Positions 36,863-42,999 of a stretch of 64,000 nucleotides of DNA are shown piece after piece. Position 1 is the stretch's first letter. Every line of letters begins with the position of its first letter. Location: contig CANBTI010000002.1 of assembly GCA_947372355.1 (NCBI GenBank), positions 1 to 64,000 of the forward strand, given 5' to 3'. The notes under the pieces were generated by a model, which saw nothing but the letters and a program-made list of their open reading frames with translations, was not told where the DNA came from and ran no database searches. Position numbers and translations under genes: made by a program. The stretch is from Bdellovibrionales bacterium. GTDB lineage: Bacteria > Bdellovibrionota > UBA1018 > CAIMNF01.

Positions 36863-36943
36863 GAGCTTTTTATACATTAATTTTATTTAAATAATCAAAA
36901 AATAATGCTACATTCCAAAAACGGAAAAGATAAAGGAACAATT

Positions 36944-37693
36944 ATGCACATCTTACTAGCGATTTTTACAATGATTTCAACTGCACATGCTCAAGACGCT
37001 GGGTATTTGAAGGATTTCAATTACCAAGTGCAACAGGTATCGAGCATGAGGGATGCGCAGATTCTTGAGAATTTTCTCACCAAAGAAACCAGAAACACTT
37101 CTATTTGTGCAAATCGTGCTCATTACTGGGCATACGAACTAGCTAAATTTAAAAATGTGCAAACAGGTAAAGTGTTCATTCATTTTACAGCAGAAGGTGA
37201 AGCAAATGAAAATAAAGACTGGGCTTTCCATGTTGCACCTTATGTAATTGTAAATGGAGAAGAGGTAGTGTTGGATCCAGCTTTTGCAGTTTTTAATAAT
37301 GCTCCAGTAAAGATGGCAGATTGGACCAACTATTTTGGAAAAAGTAAAAAATGTGTAGTTCTTGATCCACTTCATAACCCAGCACACTTAAAGTTAGAAA
37401 TGAACAATGTTGGTAGTGATTCAAACACACCTCTTGATGCTAAAACAGGTTATGCTCGCCAGTATCCATCAACAGAAGGAATTTGTTATATCCGTAAAGT
37501 ACCAATGTATTACCAATGGCCAGCACAAGTATACGGTACGGATTTAATGCGCACGGGTAATACTAGATACTCAGACTTTAATTTCCAATCATTCGATCAG
37601 CAGTCTGTTTTGCAAGCCTGCAGACAAGCAGTTCGTTGGGATGTTCAGCTCAGCGTTTCCTGTTCAAAGTATTTAGGAATTAAACCAAATTAA
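36944..37693 (+). CDS. Secreted protein-glutaminase (protein deamidase)-like enzyme
   Basis: Signal peptide MHILLAIFTMISTAHA|QD; C..RAH ... W.FHVAP ... DP ... W motif order of Cys-His-Asp protein-glutaminases; RBS aaagga upstream of ATG 36944. Confidence 0.75.
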   Translation: MHILLAIFTMISTAHAQDAGYLKDFNYQVQQVSSMRDAQILENFLTKETRNTSICANRAHYWAYELAKFKNVQTGKVFIHFTAEGEANENKDWAFHVAPYVIVNGEEVVLDPAFAVFNNAPVKMADWTNYFGKSKKCVVLDPLHNPAHLKLEMNNVGSDSNTPLDAKTGYARQYPSTEGICYIRKVPMYYQWPAQVYGTDLMRTGNTRYSDFNFQSFDQQSVLQACRQAVRWDVQLSVSCSKYLGIKPN

Positions 37694-39185: not shown

Positions 39186-41468
39186 CTATTTTACGTTATT
39201 TATTAGATCTTTTGGATATTCTTTCGCACAAGTTGATTTTTTTGGCTCCCGGCCTACAATTACCTTTTCTTGCACTACTTGAGATTCGTTACAGCTTGAT
39301 TCCGCTTTTTGACCCGTTAGTTTATCTAATCGCATGTCAATTAAATGATCGCTCTCTGGAAAAGGCAACGCGGGTTCATATTGAAGAATTTTATTCATCA
39401 TCTTGGCCCATACTGGCAAGGCGGTGTTTGCTCCAGTGAGTTTTGATTTTTGAGTTCCTTGATCAAAACCCATCCAAACAATGGCGGTGAGTTGAGGGGT
39501 ATAGCCCACAAACCAAGCATCACGATAATCATTAGTGGTTCCAGTTTTGCCGGCCGCTGGCCGATGAAAAGAAAAAAGGTTCCCAGCATTCGCAGCTGTT
39601 CCTTCAACAAAAACATTCTGCAACATTTCGGTCATCATGTCGGCTATTCCCGGATCAATTTTTTCTTTCACTCTAGGTTCGCTTGCATAAAACTCGGAGC
39701 CGTCAGGATTTAAAATTGATTTAATTACCGTTAAATCGCCTGATTTTCCGTGATTGGCCAACGTGGCATAGGCAGAAATAATTTCAATTGGACTGAGTTC
39801 CACACTGCCTAAGCTAATCGAGGGGATTGCTGGTATTTTAGTTTCAATTCCAAGAGTGTGAGCCGTATCTATAATTTCAGTGAGTCCTACTTTTTGAGCT
39901 AGCCGTGCAGCAGAAGTATTAATGGATTTTGCTAAAGCGGTTTTCATCGGAATCCAGCCTAGAGATTCTTTTTCATAATTTGCAGGCTTCCAAATCGGTT
40001 GTTTTGCATCGTATTTCCAGCCCCATTTTTCATCTAATAATGGATAAGCTGGGGTAAATGAGTTGCCTTCAGAATCTTCCATCACTCTAAACGCTGTTGC
40101 ATAAACAATGGGTTTAAATGTAGAGCCTGCTTGGCGTTTCATATTCAAAATTCGATTGAATGTACTATCGGCGTAATTTTTACCACCAATCAATGCTCTA
40201 ATTTCACTTGTAGATTGGTCAATGATGGCTACCGCACCTTGGAGTGCTGCATTTTTTGCAGGATTGGCAGGAATAGCAGATTGCAGTGTTTCTTGGGCAA
40301 TTTGATTCATGCTGAGATCAAGAGAGGTGTAAACTTGAAATCCTAATTCAGGAATTTCGTTTTCTTGAAAGTGATCATTTAATAAGCGGTTGATTTCTGC
40401 TTTCACAAAATCAACATAATAGGGAGCTCGATTGCCGGCAGAAGGAGGTGGAGAAAGTCTAATGGGCAATTGAAGGGCTATTTTTAGCTCGTTTTCACTG
40501 ATTTTTTTTGTTTCAAACATTCTCTCTAAAACATATCTCTGGCGAGTTTTTGCTCGATCAAAATGGCGGTAAGGAGAATAAAACGCAGGCCCTTTAATTA
40601 AACCAACCATGAGCGCAATTTCACCCATGTTGAGATCACGAACTTGTTTGCCGAAGAAAAATTTTGCTCCTTCAGAAAAGCCACGAATTTCAAAAGAACC
40701 AACTTGACCTAGGAACACTTCATTCAAATAGCGTTCGAAAATTTGTTTTTTTGTGTATTTCAATTCTAAAACCGGAGCTAAAAAAAGCTCGTTCACCTTC
40801 ATGAAAAGATTTCTATTTTTTCTTTCCATGAGATTTTTCACTAATTGCTGAGTAATGGTACTTCCGCCTTGAGAAAGAGAAAGTGTTTTTAGATCTACAA
40901 AAATCGCACGAGCAAATCCGCGCGGATCAATACCAAAGTGTTCATAAAAGTGCTGATCCTCAGCGGAGACAATTGCGTCTGGAATTGATTTTGGAAATTC
41001 ATCAAATTTTAACACTTCTCTAATTTGCGATTTTGTCGCGGATAGAGTTGCAACAAATTCTGGTTCCAAATAAAAATCATTTATTGAACCCGTTTCTGAT
41101 TCGATGTTTTCTAACAATGATTCAGGTTGGGTTCCATCAAAGTGAAGGCGGATTTTTTTATCTTTTAGCTGAAGAGTGATGTGATTATCGGGAAGCAGAT
41201 GCTCAGGATACTGGGGCGAGTGTAAGGTGAAGGAAAGCTCGCCTCCCTTTTCCGTTGCCGAATAGCCCAAAGATTTCAGTTTTTTCTCGATTGGCTGACG
41301 CGCCTGCCCAGGTGCAACGCGAGTTACGTTAGAATAAATGCGAGTGGGAATAAATTCAGCGGGAGCATCAAAAGCGATCTCAACTTGATGGAGAAGGTAG
41401 AGAAAATAAATTACTAAGCTGGAAATAATTGTGATGAGTAAAATCCACCTTAGTTTATGTTTTTTCAT
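39186..41468 (-). CDS. mrcB: Class A penicillin-binding protein, PBP1b-type
   Basis: N-terminal TM, UB2H-like region, GT51 (EDQHFYEHFGIDPRGFARA, GGSTITQQLVKN), transpeptidase SxxK (GSTFKP), SIN, KTGTT. Confidence 0.93.
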   Translation of the reverse strand: MKKHKLRWILLITIISSLVIYFLYLLHQVEIAFDAPAEFIPTRIYSNVTRVAPGQARQPIEKKLKSLGYSATEKGGELSFTLHSPQYPEHLLPDNHITLQLKDKKIRLHFDGTQPESLLENIESETGSINDFYLEPEFVATLSATKSQIREVLKFDEFPKSIPDAIVSAEDQHFYEHFGIDPRGFARAIFVDLKTLSLSQGGSTITQQLVKNLMERKNRNLFMKVNELFLAPVLELKYTKKQIFERYLNEVFLGQVGSFEIRGFSEGAKFFFGKQVRDLNMGEIALMVGLIKGPAFYSPYRHFDRAKTRQRYVLERMFETKKISENELKIALQLPIRLSPPPSAGNRAPYYVDFVKAEINRLLNDHFQENEIPELGFQVYTSLDLSMNQIAQETLQSAIPANPAKNAALQGAVAIIDQSTSEIRALIGGKNYADSTFNRILNMKRQAGSTFKPIVYATAFRVMEDSEGNSFTPAYPLLDEKWGWKYDAKQPIWKPANYEKESLGWIPMKTALAKSINTSAARLAQKVGLTEIIDTAHTLGIETKIPAIPSISLGSVELSPIEIISAYATLANHGKSGDLTVIKSILNPDGSEFYASEPRVKEKIDPGIADMMTEMLQNVFVEGTAANAGNLFSFHRPAAGKTGTTNDYRDAWFVGYTPQLTAIVWMGFDQGTQKSKLTGANTALPVWAKMMNKILQYEPALPFPESDHLIDMRLDKLTGQKAESSCNESQVVQEKVIVGREPKKSTCAKEYPKDLINNVK

Positions 41469-41541
41469 GAGTTTCCTTCTTTTATTGCTTGACCAAACCA
41501 ATATGCGCCTCGTATTTTCGGATTTCAAGGAGAGATCAAAT

Positions 41542-42999
41542 ATGTCTCATTTATTAGTCCTCATTTTTTCAATTTTTACTAGCCAAGCACATGCGTTGGA
41601 TCTTGATTGGCATGGCCAGTTTAGAACTGAAACAAATTGGATCTATGGATACTCTAACGGGAATCTCTTATCCACGCCACTATCCACTACAGATCAAGGA
41701 TACTTCATTCCTTCGAATGGTGATAGTCCCGCATCTTTTCAAAATTTATTTTTAAGACTCACTCCGCGCGTGATTGTGAGCGACAATGTTTCTATCTATT
41801 CAAACCTTTGGTTTGGATCTCCTGATAAAGGAATTTTTGGTGGTAATCAACCTACCACATCAACGGTGAATCAAACCAATACAGGTAACGCTACGATCTC
41901 AGCAAGTACGATGTATGCCGAAGTTGCTACTGATTTCGGAACCTTGGTAGTAGGACGTGTTCCACTGCAATGGGGTTTGGGTGTTGTATGGAATACCAAC
42001 AACGATGGATTTGATCGCATGCCTTCTACCGGTGACGGTTTCAGATTAGAAACTAAACTAGGAGCATTCAAAGTTGCTCCTGCGATGTATAAATATCGCG
42101 CTGGTTCTAACTATGGCGGATCGGCTTCTTATACAGCGGGTGGATCATTGTTGACTACCAATGCTGGAACTTCAACTGCTAGTGATTACTCTCTAGCACT
42201 GACTTACAATAACGATGATGAACAAATGGATTTAGGTTTATTGTTCCTTCGTCGTTTGGCTGGAATGCAAGCAACTGTGGTTGATCCATTTTCACTTACT
42301 GGAACTACAACTGGTTATGCTTACAATGTATGGGATTTTTATATTAAAAAGAAAACGGGTATTTTCACTGTTTCTGCCGAAGTTCCAATTGTTACCGGAT
42401 TAGTTGGAAATAAAAATTACAGCACTGTTGCTGGAGCTTTAAAAGTTGATACTCAAGTAGATGATCATTGGAAATTGAAGTTAAACGGTGGTTTAGCCGG
42501 CGGACAAGAATCAGTTGCAGCGGGTTCATCTTCTTCTAAATTATCAGCATTTTACTTCCACCCTGATTATCGTCCAGGGCTACTCATGTTTAATTATAAC
42601 ATGCGTAACTTATCTGATGGAAGCTTATCTCCATTCAATGATCCAGTGACCAACGCACAATTTGTAACTTTAGGATTTGATTTCAATAGTAACAAATGGA
42701 CTCACGGAGTTCAGTGGTTATATGCAACTGCTTCAAAGGTTGCTGATCAAGCAGGTGGAACTTATTTCAATAAATGGGATGGACACTATAAAAATCAAAC
42801 AGCAGGCACCACGCAAGATAAAGGTTTGGGCTCTGAGTTTGATTACTCTCTCAATTATCAATGGGATGAATCTCTTAAGTTGGGCTTAACGATGGGCCTC
42901 TACTTCCCTGGTAAATTTTACGAGTTCAGCAATAGCGCGACAGCAAATGTGACGAAGACTGCATTTGGATCTGGGCTTAATTTGCTCGTGAAATTCTAA
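41542..42999 (+). CDS. Predicted outer-membrane beta-barrel protein
   Basis: Signal peptide (MSHLLVLIFSIFTSQAHA), amphipathic beta repeats throughout; the upstream ORF extension overlaps mrcB and is unlikely to be translated. Confidence 0.75.
   Translation: MSHLLVLIFSIFTSQAHALDLDWHGQFRTETNWIYGYSNGNLLSTPLSTTDQGYFIPSNGDSPASFQNLFLRLTPRVIVSDNVSIYSNLWFGSPDKGIFGGNQPTTSTVNQTNTGNATISASTMYAEVATDFGTLVVGRVPLQWGLGVVWNTNNDGFDRMPSTGDGFRLETKLGAFKVAPAMYKYRAGSNYGGSASYTAGGSLLTTNAGTSTASDYSLALTYNNDDEQMDLGLLFLRRLAGMQATVVDPFSLTGTTTGYAYNVWDFYIKKKTGIFTVSAEVPIVTGLVGNKNYSTVAGALKVDTQVDDHWKLKLNGGLAGGQESVAAGSSSSKLSAFYFHPDYRPGLLMFNYNMRNLSDGSLSPFNDPVTNAQFVTLGFDFNSNKWTHGVQWLYATASKVADQAGGTYFNKWDGHYKNQTAGTTQDKGLGSEFDYSLNYQWDESLKLGLTMGLYFPGKFYEFSNSATANVTKTAFGSGLNLLVKF

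Follow-up and report, generated by a model that had tools for sequence, protein, structure and literature searches.

The 64,000-nucleotide stretch of DNA analysed here (the window) contains a rightwards-transcribed gene for a putative exported relative of the bacterial protein-glutaminases (Table 1). The first-pass annotation had described an open reading frame at 36905–37693 on the forward strand, and reading of the sequence confirms that this frame is a real gene, with the codon of the proposed catalytic cysteine and the quoted motifs exactly as claimed. The start is the one part that did not hold. The ATG at 36944 (residue 14 of the long frame) is more likely than the longest-frame start at 36905, because it has a Shine-Dalgarno sequence (AAAGGAAC) at good spacing and because the syntenic ortholog in L013 begins at the matching position, with the leader MKLLLALLPFVSAFA followed by EE. 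The precursor from ATG 36944 is 249 residues long, comprising a 16-residue signal peptide and a mature protein of 233 residues (26.7 kDa); residue numbers throughout are those of the long frame (start 36905). The export signal, read by eye, is a hydrophobic leader ending in AHA immediately before QD, much as first annotated, and it is kept in the orthologs.

The gene appears to be monocistronic. Upstream and divergent from it are genes for a CHASE2 sensor kinase and a sigma-54 response regulator, and downstream and convergent with it are genes for a family-5 solute-binding protein and a class A penicillin-binding protein. We note that a 522-residue open reading frame divergent from the penicillin-binding protein gene (window 41431–42999, forward strand) has no Pfam match and is porin-like in appearance. 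The order of the neighbours is common only to the relative in G007/L013 and is not kept around the second ortholog (L014), which sits between genes that we name from their translations as a polysaccharide deacetylase and a trypsin-like protease. The trypsin-like serine protease frame (L014:3955–4905) overlaps the 3′ end of that ortholog, whose last residues are five consecutive histidines, and an S41-like peptidase is encoded further downstream. The neighbourhood points to no particular substrate. The adjoining CHASE2 kinase/sigma-54 regulator pair and the nearby class A penicillin-binding protein would suit a housekeeping modifier of the cell's own envelope proteins, but true orthologs were found in only 2 of the 11 other genomes of the genus, a patchy presence that fits such a role poorly, and one of these two is located elsewhere, as just described; we regard a housekeeping role as quite improbable.

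Table 1. Positions of the gene and its features in the window
Feature	Position	Strand	Basis
AAAGGAAC, probable ribosome-binding site for ATG 36944	36932..36939	+	Sequence
Protein-glutaminase-like gene, preferred start	36944..37693	+	Shine-Dalgarno sequence and ortholog start in L013
Signal peptide MHILLAIFTMISTAHA, cleavage before QD, no lipobox	36944..36991	+	Read by eye from sequence
PF18626 Gln_deamidase_2 domain, residues 65–142	37097..37330	+	Pfam match
Cys68, predicted catalytic nucleophile	37106..37108	+	Invariant in 59/59; aligned with protein-glutaminase Cys in 2zk9/3a54/8z3i
His109, predicted catalytic base	37229..37231	+	Invariant in 59/59; aligned with protein-glutaminase His
Asp124, predicted third catalytic residue	37274..37276	+	Invariant in 59/59; aligned with protein-glutaminase Asp
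C-terminal module Cys150 ... Cys194-Y-x-x-K-x-P-Met201-Y ... Pro206	37352..37522	+	Conservation in 59 relatives
Stretch with extra ~24 residues peculiar to the ortholog group	37367..37468	+	Cys68–Cys194 spacing; low model confidence
Cys239 and Cys253, probable second disulphide	37619..37663	+	Kept in all three orthologs

Family membership, catalytic residues and fold

The protein matches Pfam PF18626 (Gln_deamidase_2) with E=5e-12 and 46.4 bits against a curated cut-off of 25, in line with the family proposed at first pass. A profile from which the window protein and its orthologs were left out still gives this protein 128.5 bits, whereas the best of 2000 shuffles reaches 5.8, and the match is therefore beyond chance. 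A single-sequence search of the PDB gives FBPG of Flavobacterium sp. 316 (8z3i) as the best match at E=0.025, and a profile of 35 relatives retrieves protein-glutaminases only (8z3i, 3a54, 3a56, 2zk9 and 2ksv; E 2.8e-7 to 4.5e-5), with 8z3i again first at 2.8e-7 and 3a54 at 1.5e-6. Searches of NCBIfam and PADLOC returned no match and PHROG only E=0.2, leaving nothing for the window protein in the defence-system and phage-protein libraries.

In the alignment from the 35-relative profile, C68, H109, D124 and W140 fall opposite their counterparts in the solved protein-glutaminases, and the parallel drawn earlier with the Chryseobacterium motifs (C.RAH, W.(F/Y)HVA, D and P...W) is recovered against 2zk9 and 3a54. 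The Cys-His-Asp layout likewise agrees with the solved enzymes, and C68, A72, W75, K89, W106, H109, D124, W140, C150 and C194 are invariant in all 59 relatives. With the Chryseobacterium proteolyticum protein-glutaminase (2zk9, 2ksv; pro-form 3a54/3a56) the window protein has in common PF18626, the order of the triad, export, a Cys-His spacing of 41 residues, and a mature domain that starts about 40 residues before the cysteine (position 42 of the Chryseobacterium mature chain); however, the His-Asp spacing is 15 residues rather than 20, and the identity is very low.

Between the orthologs and the window gene 78–85% of synonymous sites differ and 32–33% of nonsynonymous sites, showing the protein to be constrained, and these counts indicate purifying selection (pN 0.32–0.33 against saturated synonymous sites). 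A degenerate, inactive copy of the family might be suspected because the ortholog group sits on a long stem (1.75 changes per column) and has no N-terminal domain (see below), but the purifying selection, together with the retention of all catalytic and core residues in all orthologs, makes this highly improbable. A different case is the divergent paralog L097 of G007 (L097:1495–2271), in which the profile aligns a glutamate (VLEGSY) at the position of the triad aspartate while the C-terminal cysteine module is kept; this protein possibly has an altered chemistry or is inactive.

The AlphaFold model of the window protein has a pLDDT of 76.9 and a pTM of 0.76. The cysteine protease-like fold expected at first pass is borne out in a fold search, where the six best PDB matches are all protein-glutaminase chains (E 1.6e-4 to 2.6e-3, best probability 1.0); SseI follows far behind at E 0.36, with NTAQ1 and the Pasteurella toxin lower. 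These three are papain-like deamidase-type proteins too. TM-scores to the protein-glutaminases are 0.30–0.45, so only the core is alike, and in structural alignments the identity to any characterised protein-glutaminase is about 13–20%. A search of viral models gave nothing below E 0.001. The model thus supports a protein-glutaminase fold, and this fold class covers protease and transglutaminase as well as deamidase activities (PMC10318531). Since papain-like folds serve proteases, transglutaminases and acyltransferases, and identity to the characterised enzymes is low, the protein could be a cysteine protease or transglutaminase that cleaves peptides or transfers amides, and not a glutamine deamidase. 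We consider this quite unlikely, as protein-glutaminases account for the Pfam family, the profile matches and the best structural matches alike, the protein-glutaminase-specific pattern WxFHVA...D...P...W is present, and no transglutaminase ranks above these enzymes in the fold search. Sequence and model together support the first-pass assignment as a secreted protein-glutaminase-like deamidase in family and mechanism, the activity being predicted.

Domain architecture

Synthesis of the Chryseobacterium enzyme yields an inactive pro-protein, whose pro-domain restrains the active site. The N-terminal pro-region of about 110 residues in characterised secreted protein-glutaminases of the C. proteolyticum type (114 residues in the Chryseobacterium enzyme), which is a feature of those enzymes and not of the Pfam domain, is absent from the window protein. 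Most of the relatives have the catalytic cysteine at residue ~123–174 and an extra N-terminal domain before it; among them are the Bacteriovoracaceae-type relatives (L002 and L003 in the same genome, L035 and others), which have the same catalytic domain and C-terminal cysteine module. The N-terminal domain is missing from the window protein, in which only ~39 residues separate signal cleavage from Cys68, and from its two orthologs. The chain of FBPG also reaches well N-terminal of its catalytic cysteine. PGB of Bacteroides helcogenes, a secreted protein deamidase found through its similarity to the Chryseobacterium enzyme and likened here by description only, has a pro-sequence, unlike the window protein; its pro-form is already partly active, and removal of the pro-sequence raises activity 17-fold (PMC13139226).

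A sequence profile of the relatives' N-terminal domain alone did not find the protein-glutaminase pro-region, whereas structural comparison did, and the proposed homology of the two therefore rests on structure. The model of L035, which carries the domain (pLDDT 90.5), matches the pro-forms 3a56 and 3a54 with E 2e-10 to 4e-9 over 259–266 columns at TM 0.51 (3a56 at E=2e-10 over 264 columns), and mature-only protein-glutaminases more weakly, at 2e-5 to 3e-4. Because the pro-form is matched well ahead of the mature-only structures, the N-terminal domain of L035 most likely corresponds to the pro-domain. When a tree is built from the catalytic region, the window protein groups with its two orthologs under full support, and repeated loss or gain of the N-terminal domain is seen, well-supported branches forcing at least five changes (presence was scored by length before the cysteine, and a few rows may be miscounted). 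With no pro-domain, and with the cysteine ~39 residues past the cleavage site as in mature protein-glutaminase, the window protein should be born mature and should need no activation.

The window protein also has an extra C-terminal module with Cys150 and Cys194 that is not found in the Chryseobacterium enzyme. Both cysteines are present in 59/59 relatives, P206 in 58/59 and M201 in 56/59. Most relatives have three to five cysteines in all, which fits one nucleophile and one disulphide, the latter probably Cys150–Cys194. This conserved cystine module probably lends the domain stability once it is outside the cytoplasm. In profile alignments its motif, C-Y-x-x-K-x-P-M-Y...P, is unmatched in most canonical PF18626 proteins of the same order, the alignments mostly ending before it, and of those checked only the divergent L097 retains it; it also lies outside the region aligned with FBPG (8z3i). 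Judged from these alignments, the motif is subfamily-specific. The ortholog group departs further from the other relatives, with a Cys68–Cys194 spacing of 125–126 residues versus 98–102 in most of them, and with the additional cysteines C239 and C253. In the model of the window protein the pLDDT falls below 50 at residues 170–183, within the stretch that includes the extra residues.

Distribution and proposed role

In the genome from which the window comes, five copies of the family exceed the Pfam cut-off and a sixth is weak. This divergent sixth relative (L012:1327–1893, contig 34; 188 residues) falls below the cut-off, shows the order Cys-His-Asp (KCGERE, NYHMANLVL, VMDAQF) and has no match to the C-terminal cysteine module. 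Across the phylum 178 of the 286 sampled genomes have a PF18626 match, with up to 12 copies per genome, and the window copy is therefore one of many; 0/14 control genomes pass the cut-off, and the enrichment is judged only against these 14. The named relatives, mostly Bacteriovoracaceae, Halobacteriovoraceae and Oligoflexia MAGs, are Bdellovibrio-like bacteria. Many of the matches in the phylum (G061, G087, G112 and others) lie in open frames of ~510–730 residues, which suggests fused multi-domain versions. The family sequences in the CALPVV02 records (L013, L015, L016), from a MAG titled Nitrosovibrio sp. Nv4, are the same as those in G007, which belongs to the genus of the window, and the public title looks wrong. 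Plasmid and phage records contain no relative, and a place for the gene in mobile-element cargo is unsupported. Three points are new here and go beyond the first-pass annotation: the protein lacks a pro-domain, it has a conserved cystine module near the C terminus, and the family is multi-copy across the phylum, the window gene being one of five or six copies in its genome.

The best explanation, which we hold with good confidence, is that the gene encodes an exported, pro-less protein-glutaminase (EC 3.5.1.44 type) with a Cys68-His109-Asp124 triad, predicted to convert Gln to Glu in proteins. The protein would pass through the Sec pathway and lose its 16-residue signal peptide; its papain-like/transglutaminase-like domain would then use the triad to attack the carboxamide of a protein-bound glutamine, forming a thioester with release of ammonia, and reaction with water would then yield glutamate. 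Computation supports the export, the triad and the fold, and glutamine deamidation is the chemistry expected by analogy with the characterised family. The likeliest use, at which lineage and export hint, may be to deamidate, outside the cytoplasm, proteins that are foreign or come from prey, either aiding their solubilisation and breakdown or disabling targets. We saw no sign of an association with a host that would speak for host-directed virulence.

Alternatively, the protein could act as a dedicated effector or toxin, deamidating a single target protein in prey or a competitor, and not as a general digestive deamidase. Targeted deamidase effectors are among the fold relatives (PMC10318531), and the family has been repeatedly duplicated and has diverged in the phylum, as is common for effectors. 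However, the signal peptide is plain, there is no toxin-delivery domain and no adjacent secretion system or immunity gene, and the locus (sensor kinase, gene, solute-binding protein, penicillin-binding protein) is common to one syntenic relative only; we think a dedicated effector unlikely. Returning to the exported protein-glutaminase, a wider possibility that we raise tentatively is that Bdellovibrio-like bacteria use diversified enzymes of this type, some checked by a pro-domain and some active from birth, on the proteins of prey or competitors. Copies without the pro-domain would then have to be kept in check by other means, for example through the insert peculiar to the ortholog group or through regulation by the adjacent sensor kinase.

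Protein-glutaminases have value as food enzymes, and a natural pro-less version might not need proteolytic activation; it also poses the question of what keeps such an enzyme from harming the cell that makes it. To our knowledge the natural role of protein-glutaminases has been little discussed, and the open-access literature that we searched contained no paper linking Bdellovibrio to protein-glutaminase. The phylum includes Bdellovibrio-like predators, and the abundance of the family there (178/286 genomes) makes this role testable, raising the question of whether protein deamidation helps bacteria to take other cells apart.
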